DNA from: Sediminispirochaeta smaragdinae DSM 11293
GTDB lineage: Bacteria; Spirochaetota; Spirochaetia; DSM-16054; Sediminispirochaetaceae
NCBI RefSeq assembly: GCF_000143985.1
Contig: NC_014364.1
Span: forward strand, 62,001-126,000
DNA: 64,000 nucleotides
Direction of reading: 5' to 3'
Part shown: positions 31,375 through 41,363 of the stretch, piece by piece
How positions within the stretch are numbered: the first letter of the stretch is position 1
How the letters are laid out: each line of letters begins with the position of its first letter
Position numbers and translations under genes: made by a program
Notes under the pieces: generated by a model
Databases searched by the model: none
The model's input: only the letters and a program-made list of their open reading frames with translations
Told to the model about the DNA's origin: nothing

Positions 31375-31496
31375 CCCCTCGGCACCGATCAAGCCGGTTG
31401 CGGCTCATCATCCGTCCGCTTACCGCTGCTACCTTCCGGTCCTGACGGAGTTGGGCGGTGGACAATAGCGCAGGACCTGACCGGGAAGCCAAGGGG
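31375..31496 (-). ncRNA. ffs: Signal recognition particle RNA (4.5S type)
   Basis: Read on the minus strand, the sequence has the universal domain IV: GTCAGGTCCTGC, then TCAGGACCGGAAGG with the GGAA tetraloop, then TAGCAGCGGTAAGC. The ends CCCCTTGGC and GCCGAGGGG close the terminal stem. Length is about 122 nt, so it is the short bacterial type without an Alu domain. The closing stem runs into nine T (31374-31366), so it may also serve as a terminator. It starts only 6 bases after the tRNA-Ser(GGA) end and probably is processed from the tRNA transcript. Confidence 0.95.
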
Positions 31497-31502
31497 AAAT
31501 AA

Positions 31503-31590
31503 CGGAGAGAGGGGGATTCGAACCCCCGGTACCCGGTTAGAGTACATACGCTTTCCAAGCGTACTCCTTCGGCCTCTCGGACATCTCTCC
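31503..31590 (-). tRNA. tRNA-Ser (anticodon GGA)
   Basis: A cloverleaf with a 7-bp acceptor stem GGAGAGA/TCTCTCC, discriminator G, a long variable arm, and anticodon loop TTGGAAA. CCA is not encoded. Reads UCC and UCU. Confidence 0.95.
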
Positions 31591-31615
31591 AGAATCACGA
31601 TACTCTTTTTGCCTG

Positions 31616-31702
31616 CGGAGAGAGAGGGATTCGAACCCTCGGTACCGTAAACGGTACAACGGATTTCGAGTCCGTCCGATTCAACCGCTCTCGCATCTCT
31701 CC
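31616..31702 (-). tRNA. tRNA-Ser (anticodon CGA)
   Basis: Same serine class II fold with acceptor GGAGAGA/TCTCTCC, discriminator G and a long variable arm. Anticodon loop CTCGAAA. Reads UCG. Confidence 0.95.
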
Positions 31703-31713
31703 GTAAAAAAGAA

Positions 31714-31787
31714 TGTACCCAAGAGGACTCGAACCTCCGGCCTTTAGATCCGCAATCTAACGCTCTATCCAGCTGAGCTATGGGTAC
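31714..31787 (-). tRNA. tRNA-Arg (anticodon GCG)
   Basis: Acceptor GTACCCA/TGGGTAC, discriminator A, D-loop with A20, and anticodon loop TTGCGGA between stems TTAGA and TCTAA. The anticodon GCG carries G34, where most bacteria have ACG read as ICG. Arginine identity (A20, C35) fits. It lies between two serine tRNAs. Confidence 0.92.
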
Positions 31788-31795
31788 ATACAAAA

Positions 31796-31883
<88 letters not shown>

Positions 31884-31900
31884 AAATACAAACGCTGATA

Positions 31901-31985
31901 CGGAGAAGGTGGGATTCGAACCCACGGAGCCTCGCAGCTCAACGGTTTTCAAGACCGCCTCCTTCAACCACTCGGACACCTCTCC
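31901..31985 (-). tRNA. tRNA-Ser (anticodon TGA)
   Basis: Class II tRNA with acceptor GGAGAGG pairing with CTTCTCC (one G-T pair), discriminator G, anticodon loop CTTGAAA. It is the first RNA of the minus-strand tRNA cluster. Reads UCA. Confidence 0.95.
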
Positions 31986-32012
31986 ATTCTCTGACCAGCA
32001 AACTGGGCCTTC

Positions 32013-33321: not shown

Positions 33322-34872
33322 ATGGGTTATAAACGATATCAGCTATCTCTTCCTACCGATTATGGGGAAGAGGACCTTCTCGGGCTTCTTCGCAAAAAGA
33401 GTGGCCTGACCGAATTTCGTTATGTGATCGAGAAAAAGAGTCTTGATGCACGACAAAAAAGAGAAATTCATTGGCTTCTGTCCATTGTTCTCATTTCCGA
33501 TCAACTATCGGGAGAGCCCTGGGCAGCGCCTGCCCCCCTCAATGTGCCCAAGAAGCGTAGCCCCTGCCATGTGGTGGTGGTCGGTAGTGGCCCTGCCGGA
33601 ATATTCTCGGCTTTGGTTCTTGCCGAGGCGGGGTGTTCGGTAACCGTCATAGAACGCGGTTCCCGGATTGAAAAGCGTAAACGCGATATCGATGTCTTTG
33701 AGGCAGACTCGACCTTTCCTCTGTGCAACAACTATGCCTTTGGCGAGGGAGGGGCTGGGGCCTTTTCCGACGGCAAACTGACCTCCCGGTCGAAGCATAT
33801 CGGCCCCGAGCGTGCTTTTATCCATAAAGCCTTCATCGAGGCTGGTGCTCCCGAAGAGATAGCCTGGCTTGCGCACCCCCATCTCGGCAGCGATAACCTT
33901 TTTCGAATAACTCGTGCTCTTCGTGCCAAGGTGGGGACCTTAGGAGGCTCTTTTGCCTTTGATACGTTCTTGGAGGGATTTACCCGTCTTTCCGGGGGCG
34001 GTTTTCGCTTATCATGCAAAAAAAGCATTGGCGGTGAAGGTTCGGAAATCGATGGGATCGAATGTGATTATCTGATCATTGCCTGCGGCCATTCGGCCGA
34101 CGATACCATCGCTATGATGATTCACAGCGGGATACCTTATCGAACAAAAAACTTTGCTCTTGGCTTTCGGGTGGAGCATGAGCAGCGTGTCATTAATCAT
34201 GCCCAATGGGGCAGCTCCTCTTTGCCCGGGGTAAAGGCTGCGGAGTACCGTCTGACGGCAGCGGATAATGTCTACACCTTTTGTATGTGTCCCGGCGGTC
34301 GGGTGGTACCGGCGGCAGCCTTTTCCGATCGAAATATTGTCAATGGGATGAGTAATTATTACAGGGACGGACGCTTTGCCAATGCGGCGGTGGTTGCAGG
34401 GCTTCATCCAGATCAACTTGCCGGACGTCCAGTCTCTCCTCCCGAGGCCCTGGAGCTCCTTGCCAACCTTGAGCGTCGTTTTGTGCAGACAGGCAATGGT
34501 TATGCGGCACCAGCCGCCTCTATTTCGGCCTTCCTCGCCGGAAAGGCTCCGGGGATGCTGCCCCAGGAGAGCTCCTATCCCTTTCCTCTTATTCCCGCCG
34601 ACCCCGAGGCCCTCTATCCTAAATTTCTTCTTCCGAGACTTCGTCGTGGTCTGGCTCAGTTCTGCAGCAAGATCAGGGGGTTTGATACGGGAACCATCCT
34701 TGGATTGGAAAGCAGAACCTCTTCTTCCGTCCAGGTTCTGCGGGAACAGGATGGATCTATCCCTCAATTCCCCGGGCTTTTTGTGGTGGGGGAAGCCTCC
34801 GGCTGGGCCGGGGGGATCGTGAGTTCCGCTGCCGACGGCATTCGGGCGGCAATGACCGTAGTCGGATCTTAG
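33322..34872 (+). CDS. FAD-dependent dehydrogenase, COG2509 type
   Basis: A 516-residue flavoprotein. An N-terminal ferredoxin-like region of about 70 residues ends in KKSLDARQKREI, typical of this uncharacterised family. The FAD-binding fold follows (VVVVGSGPAGIFSALVLAEAG, then VIERG), with FGEGGAGAFSDGKLTSRSK and, near the C-terminus, LFVVGEASGWAGGIVSSAADG. Substrate unknown. The ATG at 33322 has no ribosome site. A TATGAT at 33307-33312 would put the transcript start 3 bases before it, so it may be nearly leaderless. The stop overlaps the next, convergent, gene by 4 bases. Confidence 0.9.
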   Translation: MGYKRYQLSLPTDYGEEDLLGLLRKKSGLTEFRYVIEKKSLDARQKREIHWLLSIVLISDQLSGEPWAAPAPLNVPKKRSPCHVVVVGSGPAGIFSALVLAEAGCSVTVIERGSRIEKRKRDIDVFEADSTFPLCNNYAFGEGGAGAFSDGKLTSRSKHIGPERAFIHKAFIEAGAPEEIAWLAHPHLGSDNLFRITRALRAKVGTLGGSFAFDTFLEGFTRLSGGGFRLSCKKSIGGEGSEIDGIECDYLIIACGHSADDTIAMMIHSGIPYRTKNFALGFRVEHEQRVINHAQWGSSSLPGVKAAEYRLTAADNVYTFCMCPGGRVVPAAAFSDRNIVNGMSNYYRDGRFANAAVVAGLHPDQLAGRPVSPPEALELLANLERRFVQTGNGYAAPAASISAFLAGKAPGMLPQESSYPFPLIPADPEALYPKFLLPRLRRGLAQFCSKIRGFDTGTILGLESRTSSSVQVLREQDGSIPQFPGLFVVGEASGWAGGIVSSAADGIRAAMTVVGS

Positions 34873-35747
34873 TCGTCCGTCTCCTCTTCTATGGGAATGG
34901 CTTCGGCTCGTTCTTTTAGTCTTCCGGAAGGTGAGAATTTAACTACCGCTCTGCTTGGCTTTGCAGGAATCGTCATCTCCTCTCCTGTCGCCGGGACGGT
35001 AATGATCCTGGCTTTGCTTGGCGGCCTCACACGGTAACCGATTTTCCCGAGGGAGCCTAACGAGACCCGCTCGCCCAGCATAATGCCGCTTTCCACCACC
35101 GAGAAGAAATCATCCAGAATTCTGCGGACCTGGAGTTGGGTGAGGTCGTTACGCCCGGCAATATAGGCTGCCATGCGATCTTTCGTAAAATGCTCAATCT
35201 TACCCGCCATAGGGGTCTCGATGGTGCGATTAATCCTTGCAAAGCCATTGGTCAGAAAAATGGTGGCCTCCCTGATCCTCTTAGCCTGTTCTGCAGGGGA
35301 TACTCCTTCTTCGCAAACGGCAATGCGATACACTGGTGAGGTCTTTTTGATGGGAGCTCCATGGAGGATCGCAGGATTGCCGACCGAGAGGGAGGGAGCG
35401 TATGTAACATCCTGTTCCCTGATGATGTCAGGAACATCGGATCGTATGGGGATGCTTGCATACTCCATTGCCCGCCCTTCACCCGTATGGGGAAAGAGCG
35501 AGAGAAGAGAGCCTGAATTTGTAAGAAGGATACAACCCCGGGAATCATCTTCGGCCAGCTCCTTTATTTCGGCCATTTCGAGAAGCCTTGTCTGCCCGGT
35601 AAAAAGCCGTTCCTTTTCCGACCATGCCTGTTTTAGACGAGAAAACCCTTCTTCGGCATCGACAAAGTCAAGCGTGGCTGCCAGGCCTTTGAGATGCTGC
35701 TCAATCACCTTCGGCATAGTTTCTACAACTTGTTTGTCATTATTCAT
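34869..35747 (-). CDS. Unrecognised domain fused to an HU/IHF-like DNA-binding domain
   Basis: A 292-residue protein. Residues 1-180 form a domain I do not recognise, shared with the 174-residue product of the divergent gene: common motifs are DD.RG..L.T.SGSL, IR.DVP, I.K.SP.(Y/F).IAV and EAT..LT..F...N.TI. Residues 184-279 are an HU/IHF fold: RRILDDFFSVVESGIMLGER, SLGKIGYRVRPPSKARI, then AKPSRAVVKFSPSGRLKE. The arm proline region (TVPATGEEMTIPAKP) fits HU. It probably bends or binds DNA while the N-terminal domain senses or joins to its twin. Function unknown. Confidence 0.85.
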   Translation of the reverse strand: MNNDKQVVETMPKVIEQHLKGLAATLDFVDAEEGFSRLKQAWSEKERLFTGQTRLLEMAEIKELAEDDSRGCILLTNSGSLLSLFPHTGEGRAMEYASIPIRSDVPDIIREQDVTYAPSLSVGNPAILHGAPIKKTSPVYRIAVCEEGVSPAEQAKRIREATIFLTNGFARINRTIETPMAGKIEHFTKDRMAAYIAGRNDLTQLQVRRILDDFFSVVESGIMLGERVSLGSLGKIGYRVRPPSKARIITVPATGEEMTIPAKPSRAVVKFSPSGRLKERAEAIPIEEETDD

Positions 35748-35860
35748 ACTTGAAAGATAGTTCGAGGCAGAAGAAAATTCAGTAGAAGAGAAAAAATATT
35801 GTTTTTCAACGCCATGGGTAGTACGTTCAATGCACTAGTTAAAGATGAGGAGGCAGATCC

Positions 35861-36385
35861 ATGACGGATGGAAATGGTATTGAAGGAAAGATCAGAGACC
35901 ATCTCAAGCTCCTGGTGAAAACAGCCGGCCTTCCCGGTAACGAAGATTCTCTGAAACAATTGGAGAATGCCTGGATGGAAAAGATGGAGGCATTCGATAG
36001 TGAGGTAGAATCTCGTGGAATGGAGGTGGTTGATTCCTTTTTTGCGGATGATGAGCGAGGTGCTCTGCTTATGACCTATTCAGGGAGCCTGATTACCTTG
36101 GGTCCGATGGTAGGGGCGGCCAGAAGTGCCGCCTACCGAAGCATCGGGATACGGAATGATGTTCCCGAATCGATTGACAGCGATGCCGCTTCTCTTTCCG
36201 GGGATGTAGAGGTTGATTCGGTCGTATCTTTCATCGACGGCCCCATTGAAAAAAGCTCTCCGATATTCAAAATTGCGGTTGTTTCGAGCGATATGGCTGA
36301 AGAGGAACAGGAAGAACTTTTGGCCGAGGCGACGAGGATTCTTACCGAAAGCTTTGTGGACGTGAACAAGACCATCATTCAGTAG
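35861..36385 (+). CDS. Stand-alone copy of the HU-fused N-terminal domain
   Basis: A 174-residue acidic protein homologous along its length to the first 180 residues of the divergent HU-fused protein, but with no DNA-binding part. Conserved points include FADDERGALLMTYSGSLITL, IGIRNDVPES, PIEKSSPIFKIAV and EATRILTESFVDVNKTI. It heads the phosphatase-kinase-FHA operon: the phosphatase gene starts 3 bases after its stop. AGGAGGCAG precedes the ATG. It could be a partner or antagonist of the HU-fused protein and a target of the kinase. No known family recognised. Confidence 0.85.
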   Translation: MTDGNGIEGKIRDHLKLLVKTAGLPGNEDSLKQLENAWMEKMEAFDSEVESRGMEVVDSFFADDERGALLMTYSGSLITLGPMVGAARSAAYRSIGIRNDVPESIDSDAASLSGDVEVDSVVSFIDGPIEKSSPIFKIAVVSSDMAEEEQEELLAEATRILTESFVDVNKTIIQ

Positions 36386-36388
36386 CCT

Positions 36389-37417
36389 ATGTTTTTTTTG
36401 CCTTCGATAGTCACACGCAGAACGCTTCCCCCCCGGGAAGCGTATCTGCACATCGTGAAAGCCGCGACAGATAAACTCAAGGGAGAGGACCAGCTTGTAC
36501 GTCCCCGAGATGAGCATAATCGCCCTGGAGGGCTTATTCGTCTGCAGGAAGGGATCACCATGATTGTCCCCGATCTCCATGCAAGAATCCCCTTTCTCCT
36601 GCACGCCCTGGTTTTTCCCGTAGAAGGCCGACCCTTTATCGACCTGATGAAAGAGGGGTCGGGGACGATGGTCTGCGTGGGTGACGGTTTGCACTCCGAA
36701 GCCAGAGGCTATCAGCGGTGGCAGGTCGCTTTGCAGGAGCTTCTGGAGGGCTTTTTCCGTCATGAAGCAATGGATGAGGAGATGCTGGAGGGACTGGGAC
36801 AAATGGAACTGGTGATGCGGCTGAAACTCGCCTTTCCCGATCGTTTCCACTTTCTCAAAGGAAACCATGAGAATATCCTCAACAGGGAGGGAAACGGAGA
36901 TCATCCTTTTCGAAAATTTGTTTTGGAGGGTGAAATGGTCCGCGTTTATCTTCAGAAATTCTACGGTGATGATTTTCTGAAGTCCTATGCCGATTTTGAA
37001 CGTGCGCTTCCCCTTGTTGCTGCGGATGGTAACTTTATGGTTTCCCATGCAGAACCGGCACGCTCCTTTTCCCGTGAGGAGGTGATCCGTTATCGTTCGC
37101 TTGATGATGTGGTGGAGGGACTTACCTGGACCCCTAACGACGGCTCAGAGGAGGGAAGTGTACAAACGATGATAGAGAGTTTCTGTGCATCCCCCGACCA
37201 GGCGGTCTATTTCGGCGGGCATCGAACCATAGAAGGACGTTACTCCCTTCGGGCTTCGGGACGTTTTATCCAGCTTCATAATCCCGTTTCCTTCCAGGTT
37301 GCCCTGGCAGATTCCGGACGGCCCTTCGACCCTGAGCGGGATATTGTCGATGTTTCTGGGGATCCGGCGGCGCTTTTAGAGCGTTCGGAGCTTGAAATAT
37401 CAGAGGAAACGCCATGA
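36389..37417 (+). CDS. Calcineurin-like (PPP-type) metallophosphatase
   Basis: A 342-residue soluble enzyme. PPP-style metal motifs are in order: PDLHARIP (Asp and His of motif I, without the usual GD.HG), CVGDGLHSEARG, FLKGNHEN with Asn-His, VSHAEP and FGGHR. The motif II arginine of GD..DRG is absent, so catalysis may differ. It probably removes phosphate from Ser/Thr on proteins, reversing the kinase encoded next. No ribosome site is seen; the start lies 3 bases from the upstream stop. It overlaps the kinase by ATGA. Confidence 0.82.
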   Translation: MFFLPSIVTRRTLPPREAYLHIVKAATDKLKGEDQLVRPRDEHNRPGGLIRLQEGITMIVPDLHARIPFLLHALVFPVEGRPFIDLMKEGSGTMVCVGDGLHSEARGYQRWQVALQELLEGFFRHEAMDEEMLEGLGQMELVMRLKLAFPDRFHFLKGNHENILNREGNGDHPFRKFVLEGEMVRVYLQKFYGDDFLKSYADFERALPLVAADGNFMVSHAEPARSFSREEVIRYRSLDDVVEGLTWTPNDGSEEGSVQTMIESFCASPDQAVYFGGHRTIEGRYSLRASGRFIQLHNPVSFQVALADSGRPFDPERDIVDVSGDPAALLERSELEISEETP

Positions 37418-39030
37418 ATCGGCCTCCGGAGATGATCGGAAAGTATAAGATCATAGATCTCATAGCAACAGGTGGAATGGGGGCCGTCTACAAGGGGGTG
37501 CACCCTACCCTTGATTGTTATGTGATCATCAAGAAACTGACCCTGCGGGGGAATCCTGATTTTGCCGAACGCTTTCGTCGGGAAGCAAAAATCCTCATGG
37601 ATTTTCGCAACGACAATATTGTCGATATATATGACCATTTCAAGGAAGGACGCTCCCACTATATTGTCCTCGAATATATCGACGGCCTTTCTTTGGAGCA
37701 GCTTATCAGGCGGGAACGTTACCTCTCAAACGATATGGCTCTCTACATTTTTCGGGAGGTGTGTAAGGCCCTCGATTATGCCCACAAACGAAGGGTCGTT
37801 CACCGTGATATCAAACCGGCGAATATTCTCATCTCGAAAAAGGGAGAGGTGAAACTGGTGGATTTCGGTATCGCCTCTTCCAAGGAGGAGGATGGGGAAG
37901 CGGGGCTGACTCGGGACGGTATGACCCTGGGATCTCCCTCGTATATGGCTCCCGAGCAGTTCGAAAATAGCAGGAATGTCGACCAGCGGGCCGATATCTA
38001 CTCTCTCGGGGTGATGTTGTACGAGAGTGTCACAGGGAAAAAGCCTTATCCCGGCGGTTATACCGCCGATTTAATAGCGGCGATTACCAAGGGAAAGCAT
38101 CCTGCTCCCCGTCGCCTTAATCCCAAGGTGAACCGTTTTGTCTCTTCGATCGTCAAAAAGACGATGCATCCTAAACCAAGACGACGTTATCAAAATCTTA
38201 CCTCTCTGCTTCGTCGCCTGGACCGTTACTTCCACCGTAAACCGGTCGAAGCTCTTAAGGAGCAGCTGAAAAAGGCAATTTCCGGAGGAACGTTGGAATC
38301 CACTCCACGAAAGAAGCTAGGAAAGCTCCGACGTTTTTTTTCAATAGCCCTACCCGTGTTCTTTTTATTGTTCCTTTTGCTCGGTAGTGCATATCGTAGC
38401 GGCTGGTACCAGCGCCTCTTTCTTGCCGACAGCTATGGTGAGTTGAGAATTGCCTTGCATCTGGATCATTCCTATAAGGAGCCGAAGGATCTTTACTTGC
38501 GGGGTTGGCTTTTTGCCGATACAGGTGAAGACGGAACAGCCCTCGATATTGATCCGATACATTTTCGTCTTCTCCCCTCAGAAGAGCGGGAAGGAGACCT
38601 GAACTTTGTCAGCAGGCGGGTTTTCCTTCCTTCAGGTGATTATCGTCTTAAGGTTCAGATAGAGAACAACTTGTTTTGGAACACCTTTAGGCTCCATACC
38701 ATAAAGGAACAGCATAATCTTTACCAGGGTGAGCAGGGACGTACCATCACCCTGTGCACAAGCTCCCATACGCTTCCGCTTTCGGTCGATTTTTTTGTTC
38801 AGGATTGTGATACCTGGGTTGATATTACCCCGATTTCCCTTATTGAACTCAAAACGGGCGGAAGGTGGACTCCCTGGAGTGATGAGCTTGCCGAGGGACT
38901 TACAACCGGGTCGGTATATCGATTTCGCATTTCTGCCCCGGGATACACAGAAAAGGAATTTAGTCTTTTGATTCGGGAAGATCAAAGTACACTCTATCTC
39001 AACCCACGATTGGAGAAATCAAAACTATGA
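37414..39030 (+). CDS. Membrane Ser/Thr protein kinase (Hanks type)
   Basis: A 538-residue kinase. The catalytic domain (residues 11-275) is complete: glycine loop ATGGMGAVYKG, Lys40/41, HRDIKPANI with Asp132, DFG at 150-152, and APE at 179-181. One membrane helix near residues 312-332 is followed by a beta-rich outer domain of about 205 residues, rather than PASTA repeats. The outer domain has no recognised fold. Encoded between the PPP phosphatase and two FHA proteins, so it likely phosphorylates FHA partners and perhaps the novel-domain proteins. Confidence 0.95.
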   Translation: MNRPPEMIGKYKIIDLIATGGMGAVYKGVHPTLDCYVIIKKLTLRGNPDFAERFRREAKILMDFRNDNIVDIYDHFKEGRSHYIVLEYIDGLSLEQLIRRERYLSNDMALYIFREVCKALDYAHKRRVVHRDIKPANILISKKGEVKLVDFGIASSKEEDGEAGLTRDGMTLGSPSYMAPEQFENSRNVDQRADIYSLGVMLYESVTGKKPYPGGYTADLIAAITKGKHPAPRRLNPKVNRFVSSIVKKTMHPKPRRRYQNLTSLLRRLDRYFHRKPVEALKEQLKKAISGGTLESTPRKKLGKLRRFFSIALPVFFLLFLLLGSAYRSGWYQRLFLADSYGELRIALHLDHSYKEPKDLYLRGWLFADTGEDGTALDIDPIHFRLLPSEEREGDLNFVSRRVFLPSGDYRLKVQIENNLFWNTFRLHTIKEQHNLYQGEQGRTITLCTSSHTLPLSVDFFVQDCDTWVDITPISLIELKTGGRWTPWSDELAEGLTTGSVYRFRISAPGYTEKEFSLLIREDQSTLYLNPRLEKSKL

Positions 39031-39043
39031 AAGGAGCCGAAGC

Positions 39044-39919
39044 ATGAGTATCGGTCTTAAAAGAATCATTATCATAGCCTTGGGAATTCTTGCCGGTGCG
39101 GCTGCATGGCCGCTGATGGAGCTTGTCCTTTCATTTCAGTCGCTTTTTCCGGGCTATTTTATCTTCAGCATTGTCCAGGGGGCCCTCTTCGGTCTCGTTC
39201 TCGGCCTTTTTTTCGGCTCGGGAGAGGGGCTGACCTCACGGAACGGAAAGAAACTTGGACATGGGCTTGCAAGTGGTGCGGCGGTTGGAGTAATCGGAGG
39301 GGTGGTCGGTTTTCTTTTCGGCCAGGGGGTGCTCTTTTTCATCCTTGATAAAACATCCAACTACCTTGCTGTCCCCGTAGCAAGGGGAATCGGCTGGGCG
39401 CTTCTTGGGCTCTTTGTCGGCGCTGTGGATGGTATCAGAGTCCGTAGCCTGAGGAAGACGGCAATAGGTGCTTTGGGAGGGATTATCGGCGGAGCGGCCG
39501 GTGGGGCTGCCATTGAGTTGATCCGTCTCCATTTTTCGGAGCTTCTTATGATACGAGCCGTTGGCTTTATTTTGTTCGGCCTGCTTGTGGGAATCGGCTA
39601 CGCGGTTGCCGAACGAAGCTTCTCCTTTGGTATCCTTCACGTTCTTAACGGGCCTCAGCGGGGACGGGAATACAGCCTCTCCCAATCCTCCTTTTTTGTG
39701 GGGACCTCTTCTTCTAACGATATCAGTGCAGAGGGGTATCACGATATTGAGCCTCGGCATATACGTTTTTATTCCAAGAGAAAAGAACTCTACATAAAGG
39801 ATATCTCCGGGAAAGCAGGGACTAAGGTCAATGAGGAACCGCTCCGGGGAGAGCGCTTACTAAAATATGAAGATGTGATTCAGGTCGGTTCCCTGAAGAT
39901 CTGTTATCTTACCGAATAG
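39044..39919 (+). CDS. Glycine-rich membrane protein with C-terminal FHA domain
   Basis: A 291-residue protein. Six or so glycine-rich hydrophobic helices fill residues 5-195 (pattern GGVVGFLFGQGVLF, LGGIIGGAAGGAA). An FHA fold fills residues 200-291: PQRGREYSLSQSSFFVGTSS, RHIRFYSKRKELYIKDISG, and GTKVNEEPLRGERLL. The GR/S..H core is altered (SFFVGT, EPRHI), so phosphothreonine binding is not certain. It lies 13 bases after the kinase gene and probably is part of the same membrane signalling complex. Confidence 0.85.
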   Translation: MSIGLKRIIIIALGILAGAAAWPLMELVLSFQSLFPGYFIFSIVQGALFGLVLGLFFGSGEGLTSRNGKKLGHGLASGAAVGVIGGVVGFLFGQGVLFFILDKTSNYLAVPVARGIGWALLGLFVGAVDGIRVRSLRKTAIGALGGIIGGAAGGAAIELIRLHFSELLMIRAVGFILFGLLVGIGYAVAERSFSFGILHVLNGPQRGREYSLSQSSFFVGTSSSNDISAEGYHDIEPRHIRFYSKRKELYIKDISGKAGTKVNEEPLRGERLLKYEDVIQVGSLKICYLTE

Positions 39920-39938
39920 AGGATCATGGGGGTTTTGT

Positions 39939-41363
39939 ATGAATCGTTTCGCCGCTGTTGTTTGTATAACTGTTTTTTTGGCGCCTGCTTTTACACTTTC
40001 TGCAGAGACCCTGCAGATTACGCAGATAGATTCTTCATCACTGCTTCTTTCCCAGTCGGTTGATCTCTATGTTTCTCTGACCGATGATACCGGAACTCCC
40101 CTGAAGGGGATATCCGGGGATTCTTTTCAGCTTTTTGAATCGGATGATCCCGATACTTTTTCCGAACCTATGCTTATCCGATCGCTAGCTCCGAACCCGC
40201 ACGAATCACAAGGCCTATCCATCCTCCTACTGATGGATAATTCCGGGAGTATGTATGATACCCTTTCCGGTGATCCCACTGGCGATCCTGCTCTCATGCG
40301 TACCACCTATGCTCGTAATGCGCTTCGGACCTTTGTGGGGTCTTCCTTTCATGCCGGAGATAGCGTCTCTTTTGCCACCTTCAATACCAATGTTGTACTT
40401 CATGCGGATGAGGCCGGGGATCCCGTGGTGATGGATATGCTGCTTTCCGGTATCCGCCGCCCGGGAACAGACGAATCGTATACGGAACTCTATCACGCGC
40501 TTGCCGATATGGCGCTTCCTGTGGGAGAGCGGTCCGGGCGCCGGGCCGTCATTGTCCTCTCCGACGGGGAGGATTACTCCTATGCGACCCATAGTGGGAA
40601 CCCTCATCCCATCTACGGGAATCAGCAGCTTAGCCCGGATGAGGTTGTGGAGGAGTATATCCGCAATGGTGTTACCTTGTACGCTATCCATTTCGGCTTG
40701 GAAAAGGACCAATACCTTGGTGAGATGGCGCTCAAAACCGGGGGAGCGGTCTATGATGCAAAAGACCAGGAGGAGTTGACAGGCATCTACCATGACATTC
40801 GGCAAAAAATCGATGGAGAGTACCTGATCCGCTATCGGGCCGGGATGTTTCCCGCTGACAAGACCTATGTCAAACTGATTCATAAAAGCCCTGAGGGAAA
40901 CAGTGAAGCCGTTCGTTACTACTATACCTCAACCATGTTCGGCCGGCCGGTGGTTCCTTTCCCTTGGAAAATCTTTTTGATTCTACCCGCCGTGCTTCTT
41001 ATCTGGCTGTTGCTTCTCTTGATTCGCAACCGAACCTTCCATTCCGACGCTGCCTTGCGGATTCTTCGTGCAGGATATGGTACGAAGATCAGTTCGGCAA
41101 CCATTGCGATACAGCAGGAAAAGACAGTGATCGGAGGAGGGGAACAGGCAGATCTTACCCTTTCCGGCAGAGGGGTTCCTCATGACCGGGATGTAACCAT
41201 TGTGTTCGATAAGCAACAGAAAAACTACACCATTGTGGGGGGGGCCGGAGTTAGCGTCAACAACCAACCGCTCAAGGGGGAAAGACGACTGAGCGGTGGA
41301 GATGTACTTAATATCGAAGGGACCACCATCGTTTTTGAAGAACCGGACGAGGGTAAGAACTAA
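39939..41363 (+). CDS. Exported von Willebrand A domain protein with FHA-like tail
   Basis: A 474-residue protein with a signal peptide (cleavage near TLSAE), then an outer VWA domain with a complete MIDAS start (LLLMDNSGSMYD, Asp100, Ser102, Ser104), a membrane helix at about residues 345-365 (IFLILPAVLLIWLLLLLI), and a cytoplasmic FHA-like fold (TVIGGGEQADLTLSG, then VSVNNQPLKGERRLSGGD). The inner domain lacks the RS..H signature, so it may be a structural copy. It ends the operon and could carry signals from an outer ligand to the kinase. The stop overlaps the convergent EamA gene by 4 bases. Confidence 0.88.
   Translation: MNRFAAVVCITVFLAPAFTLSAETLQITQIDSSSLLLSQSVDLYVSLTDDTGTPLKGISGDSFQLFESDDPDTFSEPMLIRSLAPNPHESQGLSILLLMDNSGSMYDTLSGDPTGDPALMRTTYARNALRTFVGSSFHAGDSVSFATFNTNVVLHADEAGDPVVMDMLLSGIRRPGTDESYTELYHALADMALPVGERSGRRAVIVLSDGEDYSYATHSGNPHPIYGNQQLSPDEVVEEYIRNGVTLYAIHFGLEKDQYLGEMALKTGGAVYDAKDQEELTGIYHDIRQKIDGEYLIRYRAGMFPADKTYVKLIHKSPEGNSEAVRYYYTSTMFGRPVVPFPWKIFLILPAVLLIWLLLLLIRNRTFHSDAALRILRAGYGTKISSATIAIQQEKTVIGGGEQADLTLSGRGVPHDRDVTIVFDKQQKNYTIVGGAGVSVNNQPLKGERRLSGGDVLNIEGTTIVFEEPDEGKN

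Follow-up and report, generated by a model that had tools for sequence, protein, structure and literature searches.

A protein domain of about 170 residues with no match to a known family is shared by two divergent genes of Sediminispirochaeta smaragdinae. In one, FUS, it forms the N-terminal part (about 180 residues) of a protein that ends in an HU/IHF domain; in the other, STA, it stands alone at the head of an operon for a membrane-bound Ser/Thr kinase, a PPP-type phosphatase and FHA and VWA proteins. The two genes lie within the window, the whole stretch of 64,000 nucleotides that was analyzed. The best explanation, offered tentatively, is that the membrane kinase module has this domain as its partner or target in the cytosol and that FUS carries the domain to DNA.

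The FUS/STA gene pair and its shared domain

An earlier note, made from the sequence alone, had described an unrecognized domain in two divergent genes, an HU-like fold in one copy only, and the other copy as the first gene of a phosphatase-kinase-FHA operon. Each of these observations was borne out. Both open reading frames were found as described (Table 1), and FUS and STA both present the motifs DD.RG..L.T.SGSL, IR.DVP, I.K.SP...IAV and EAT..LT..F, the four matching pairs being DDSRGCILLTNSGSL / DDERGALLMTYSGSL, IRSDVP / IRNDVP, IKKTSPVYRIAV / IEKSSPIFKIAV and EATIFLTNGF / EATRILTESF. From an ungapped BLASTP alignment (57/162 identities, 35%, 93.6 bits, E = 4e-28), the similarity is far above chance and the two proteins are, as judged from their sequences, paralogues. 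They are the only two copies of the domain in the genome. A promoter scan of the intergenic region returned two weak promoter-like matches and nothing usable. Elsewhere in the window, five consecutive tRNA genes (four Ser, one Arg) occupy positions 31502-31986 of the minus strand; an open reading frame at 31389-31793 reads through them and was rejected as a gene.

Table 1. Coordinates of the FUS/STA gene pair, its domains and the adjoining kinase operon within the window.
Feature	Position	Strand	Description	Basis
FUS	34869..35747	-	292-aa protein, new N-terminal domain and HU/IHF domain	ORF, BLASTP, Pfam
HU/IHF domain of FUS	34905..35186	-	residues 188-281, DNA-arm motif TGEE..I.AKP	PF00216, Foldseek, alignment
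N-domain of FUS	35217..35711	-	residues about 13-177, long helices round a beta core	AF2 mean pLDDT 86.0; alignment
Thr175 codon of FUS	35223..35225	-	candidate site, equivalent of STA Thr171, helix end before HU linker	AF2 model; residue conservation
FUS/STA intergenic region	35748..35860	.	113 bp between divergent genes	GAGGAGG Shine-Dalgarno-like before STA
STA	35861..36385	+	174-aa stand-alone copy of N-domain, first gene of kinase operon	AF2 pLDDT 88.5, pTM 0.85
Thr171 codon of STA	36371..36373	+	candidate phospho-acceptor	residue conservation
PP	36389..37417	+	PPP/calcineurin-like phosphatase, metal-site motifs intact (D.H, GD, GNHE, H, H)	PF00149
STK	37414..39030	+	Hanks-type Ser/Thr kinase, membrane-spanning segment, extracytoplasmic C-terminal part	PF00069 E 1.2e-52
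TMFHA	39044..39919	+	multi-membrane-span protein, FHA-fold domain at the C-terminus without the phosphothreonine-binding Arg and Ser	PF16697 / PF00498
VWA-FHA	39939..41363	+	VWA domain and membrane segment, degenerate FHA at the C-terminus	PF00092, PF16697 weak

The HU half of FUS is identified with confidence. It matches PF00216 with E = 4.6e-15 (56.1 bits vs a gathering cut-off of 22.4), its best Foldseek match to IHF/HU chains has E = 9.5e-6 (prob 1.00), and the beta-arm of the HU/IHF fold is present, with the arm motif visible in the HU alignment. No recognized domain was found in STA. A separate, ordinary HU gene is located elsewhere in the S. smaragdinae genome. As a putative dimer, FUS may bind and bend DNA. 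In three genomes where no full FUS was found, the FUS profile matches a short HU protein (126-160 residues, 110-119 bits; L115:9653-10030, L114:2536-2922 and L116:8828-9307); these proteins closely resemble the HU half and are possibly that half on its own.

Searches of Pfam and NCBIfam with 31 members of the domain found no family match outside the HU half, PHROGs gave no match to the domain with members P0001 and P0002, and no PDB sequence matched the N-domain above chance. Literature searches, which covered open-licence papers, returned no description of it. The AlphaFold2 model of STA is confident (pLDDT = 88.5, pTM = 0.85) although calculated from a shallow alignment of 31-37 rows, and is composed of two N-terminal helices, a beta core and a single long C-terminal helix. 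A Foldseek search with the N-domain model gave nothing significant (best E = 0.05 in the PDB and 0.07 in BFVD). Since the search covered the PDB and BFVD, these negatives do not prove a new fold; from the model, the fold is possibly new. The best VIA-align match had Z = 4.3 with an rmsd of 3.9 over 83 residues. Likenesses to EndoMS (Z = 4.3) and, in weak rows, to GAF domains (Z = 2.4-2.7) were not trusted.

In STA numbering, the residues that are invariant or nearly so in both STA and FUS are Trp38, Lys41, Phe45, Ser74-Gly-Ser76, Arg88, Tyr92, Ser94, Arg98, Asp100-Val-Pro102, Ser133, Phe165 and Asn169. Most of these are also retained in a distant subfamily. A profile built from that subfamily recovers STA and FUS in return, and the new domain family has at least four subgroups. 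Members of the distant subfamily occur in other spirochaete families (L109, L110, L111, L134-L139) with up to four copies per genome (G074); no FHA or kinase gene was adjacent in the three loci examined. In a quick tree with this subfamily as outgroup, 45 FUS N-domains are set apart from the rest by a branch with an SH-aLRT support of 99. Thus, the split between FUS and STA is old and the fusion to HU probably happened once.

The kinase operon and its conservation

STA is followed in the window by PP, STK, TMFHA and VWA-FHA. While PP scores just under the PF00149 cut-off (21.3 vs 21.5 bits), its metal-site motifs are kept in 55 relatives. STK has the glycine loop, the VAIK lysine, HRD and DFG, and its membrane segment was read off the sequence. 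The catalytic residues are kept in 61/61 relatives and one position of the glycine loop in 60/61. Since both the catalytic residues of the kinase and the metal-site residues of the phosphatase have been kept, reversible phosphorylation by the two enzymes is likely to be real.

The FHA domains of the operon present a different picture. In TMFHA proteins, which mostly depart from the Gly-Arg and Ser-x-x-His pattern, the phosphothreonine-binding arginine is found in 3/59 and the serine in 12/59, and the FHA domains of the VWA-FHA proteins are likewise divergent from the phosphothreonine-reading pattern. Because the arginine and serine are mostly absent, these domains need not read phosphorylation, and that role was set aside; from their sequences, they look like scaffolds. 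In the window (39044-41363), the operon's FHA domains have lost the phosphothreonine-binding arginine and, mostly, the serine, and resemble the YscD-type FHA fold.

The gene order from STA to VWA-FHA recurs in dozens of loci. Genes beyond the block (an FAD protein, a 107-aa ORF, endonuclease IV and DnaX) are kept within the same genus only and serve as an internal control. In one family, the phosphatase is absent with the remaining order kept. TMFHA and VWA-FHA are fused in some genomes into one protein of 761 residues (for example, L033:9790-12072), which points to joint action of the two.

The domain was identified in 34/296 genomes of the phylum and in 105/395 genomes of the class. A scan of GTDB contigs returned 19 loci, all in Spirochaetota, with one peptide pattern that does not prove absence elsewhere. 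Plasmid and phage searches with STA as the query gave no match. TMFHA is present in 95 of the 395 class genomes and the domain accompanies it in 94 of these; 11 genomes have the domain only, one has TMFHA only and 289 have neither (Fisher 3.6e-77, shared ancestry ignored). Counted by genus, the domain and TMFHA are found in 49 and 48 of 133. FUS is present as a single copy in 89 of the class genomes, 82 of which also have TMFHA. Since 13 genomes with TMFHA, several of them more than 90% complete, gave no match to FUS, it is not a fixed part of the module. FUS and STA are divergently adjacent in 50 genomes with a median gap between the domains of 138 bp, and the pair is conserved in relatives.

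Copies of the domain outside the operon also have telling neighbors. Seven of ten such STA copies are divergent to a small FHA protein, and the three of these proteins that were scanned all combine a canonical FHA domain with a LuxR-type HTH, making them FHA transcription factors. Small proteins divergent to the extra copies are found at L054:6986-7549, L066:9310-9855 and L073:10700-11269, and also at L047, L076, L077 and L083. Two FUS genes located away from STA adjoin a small canonical FHA gene, in one case with an FHA–GGDEF gene alongside. At L068:10576-11953, a small FHA gene and a gene for an FHA–GGDEF diguanylate cyclase lie upstream of FUS on the same strand, and a link to cyclic di-GMP is possible. 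The domain is thus associated with FHA proteins, and also with DNA-binding proteins, in more than one setting. As one copy is joined to HU and the domain accompanies the kinase cluster across many spirochaetes, the cluster may act on DNA by way of this domain.

Proposed mechanism and alternatives

In the proposed mechanism, a membrane-bound signalling module of spirochaetes, composed of the Ser/Thr kinase, the PPP phosphatase and the FHA and VWA proteins, would have the shared domain as its partner or target in the cytosol. STA would be the dedicated adaptor or substrate of the module beside its membrane proteins, and FUS would be the same domain mounted on an HU/IHF-type DNA-bending dimer. 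The state of the module, phosphorylated or not, bound or free, would then alter the sites at which FUS bends DNA or the strength of the bending, probably at promoters and perhaps within the intergenic region shared by the two genes. The physical interaction, the phosphorylation of the domain, and the bending of DNA by FUS with its effect are all steps that we infer. The larger claim, in which a new and possibly new-fold signalling domain allows a membrane Ser/Thr kinase module to control an HU-type DNA-bending protein in an undescribed kinase-to-nucleoid pathway, is doubtful at present.

A candidate for the phosphorylation site is Thr171 of STA and its equivalent in FUS, Thr175. The position is threonine in 95% of the operon STAs and threonine or serine in 86% of FUS proteins; among the ten copies that lie elsewhere than in the kinase operon, it is aspartate or glutamate in 80%. 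The pattern could also be due to the structure of the helix end, and the site may be considered a hypothesis.

The earlier note had drawn a link to phosphorylation from one gene order and proposed a nucleoid or promoter switch. With a conserved operon in dozens of loci and the co-occurrence with TMFHA, the link itself holds across the phylum and is now well supported genomically. Neither outcome that the note had named as refuting its reading, a strong match to a known family of unrelated function or a pair not conserved in relatives, was observed. The switch stays an inference. Operon FHA domains that mostly lack the phosphothreonine-reading residues, no specific co-variation of STA with FUS, and the 13 genomes that have the FHA protein and gave no FUS match all count against part of the note's reading. 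They also weigh against the mechanism proposed here, as does a clade in which FUS has neither a kinase nor an FHA gene close by.

Other arrangements of the same parts can be considered. STA may be an antagonist of FUS, the paralogous domains pairing such that STA keeps FUS off the DNA until the kinase releases it. A DNA-binding half on FUS only and the divergent adjacency in 50 genomes agree with this reading; however, STA is retained in genomes without a FUS match and a mirror-tree comparison of STA and FUS distances identified no co-variation beyond shared history (partial 0.14), making it unlikely. The short divergent intergenic region and its conserved arrangement would suit a FUS protein that acts only as a local autoregulator, binding between the genes to set expression of its own gene and of the kinase operon, and not as an output of the kinase. 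Sequence specificity is usually low for HU-type proteins, and in the assemblies 39 of the 89 FUS genes do not adjoin STA, among them that of the single-contig genome G130. Local autoregulation is therefore given little credence.

It is also improbable that the domain acts as a sensor of a small molecule or anion, with STA relaying the signal to the kinase and FUS relaying it to DNA. A putative polar pocket (Lys41, Thr72, Ser74, Ser76, Arg88, Tyr92, Ser94, Arg98, Asp100 and Ser133 in STA numbering) is invariant or nearly so in STA and FUS with most residues kept in the distant subfamily, but conserved polar residues may be structural. Finally, the neighborhood might only reflect gene order inherited from an ancestor, with FUS as a minor nucleoid protein of the ordinary kind. 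In one clade, FUS does stand by itself, and neither kinase nor FHA genes are close to it. Against this, the block is conserved while its flanking genes are not, the domain and TMFHA co-occur over 395 genomes, including a same-genus contrast between G319 with both and G303 with neither, and the association with FHA is repeated in other settings. Ancestral order is thus a very remote prospect.

Comparison with known systems

Kinase–phosphatase–FHA clusters are common, often with outputs yet to be identified. Most spirochaete genomes with such a cluster have it tied to an HU-type DNA-binding protein by a domain that matches no known family, and a sister copy of the domain adjoins an FHA–LuxR transcription factor. 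If the proposed mechanism is true, Ser/Thr signalling at the spirochaete membrane would have a testable route to gene expression or to the shape of the nucleoid.

In type VI secretion, the PpkA–PppA–Fha pathway of threonine phosphorylation combines a kinase, a phosphatase, and FHA and VWA parts within a single cluster, as the spirochaete operon does. PppA is of the PP2C type, unlike the PPP-type phosphatase observed here, and we know of no HU protein or copy of the new domain in that pathway.

The C-terminal half of FUS is like the HU/IHF (DNABII) nucleoid-associated proteins in fold and arm motif, and ordinary HU lacks the N-terminal domain that precedes it. Phosphorylation of HU is known to alter DNA binding, both for DrHU in Deinococcus (PMC9900698) and for HupB in M. 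tuberculosis (reviewed in PMC4754617).

In Sulfolobus, motility is under the control of the ArnA/ArnB–ArnC–PP2A network (PMC7472852, PMC12852372), in which a Ser/Thr kinase, a PPP-type phosphatase, and FHA and VWA proteins act jointly in regulation. The same parts are present in the one spirochaete operon, where they may act as a complex. The Sulfolobus network is archaeal, and neither an HU fusion nor a homologue of the new domain has been reported from it. ArnA contains a zinc finger and an FHA domain that binds phosphorylated ArnB (PMC7472852, PMC12852372); in contrast, the FHA and VWA proteins of the spirochaetes look to be membrane-bound with degenerate FHA domains.
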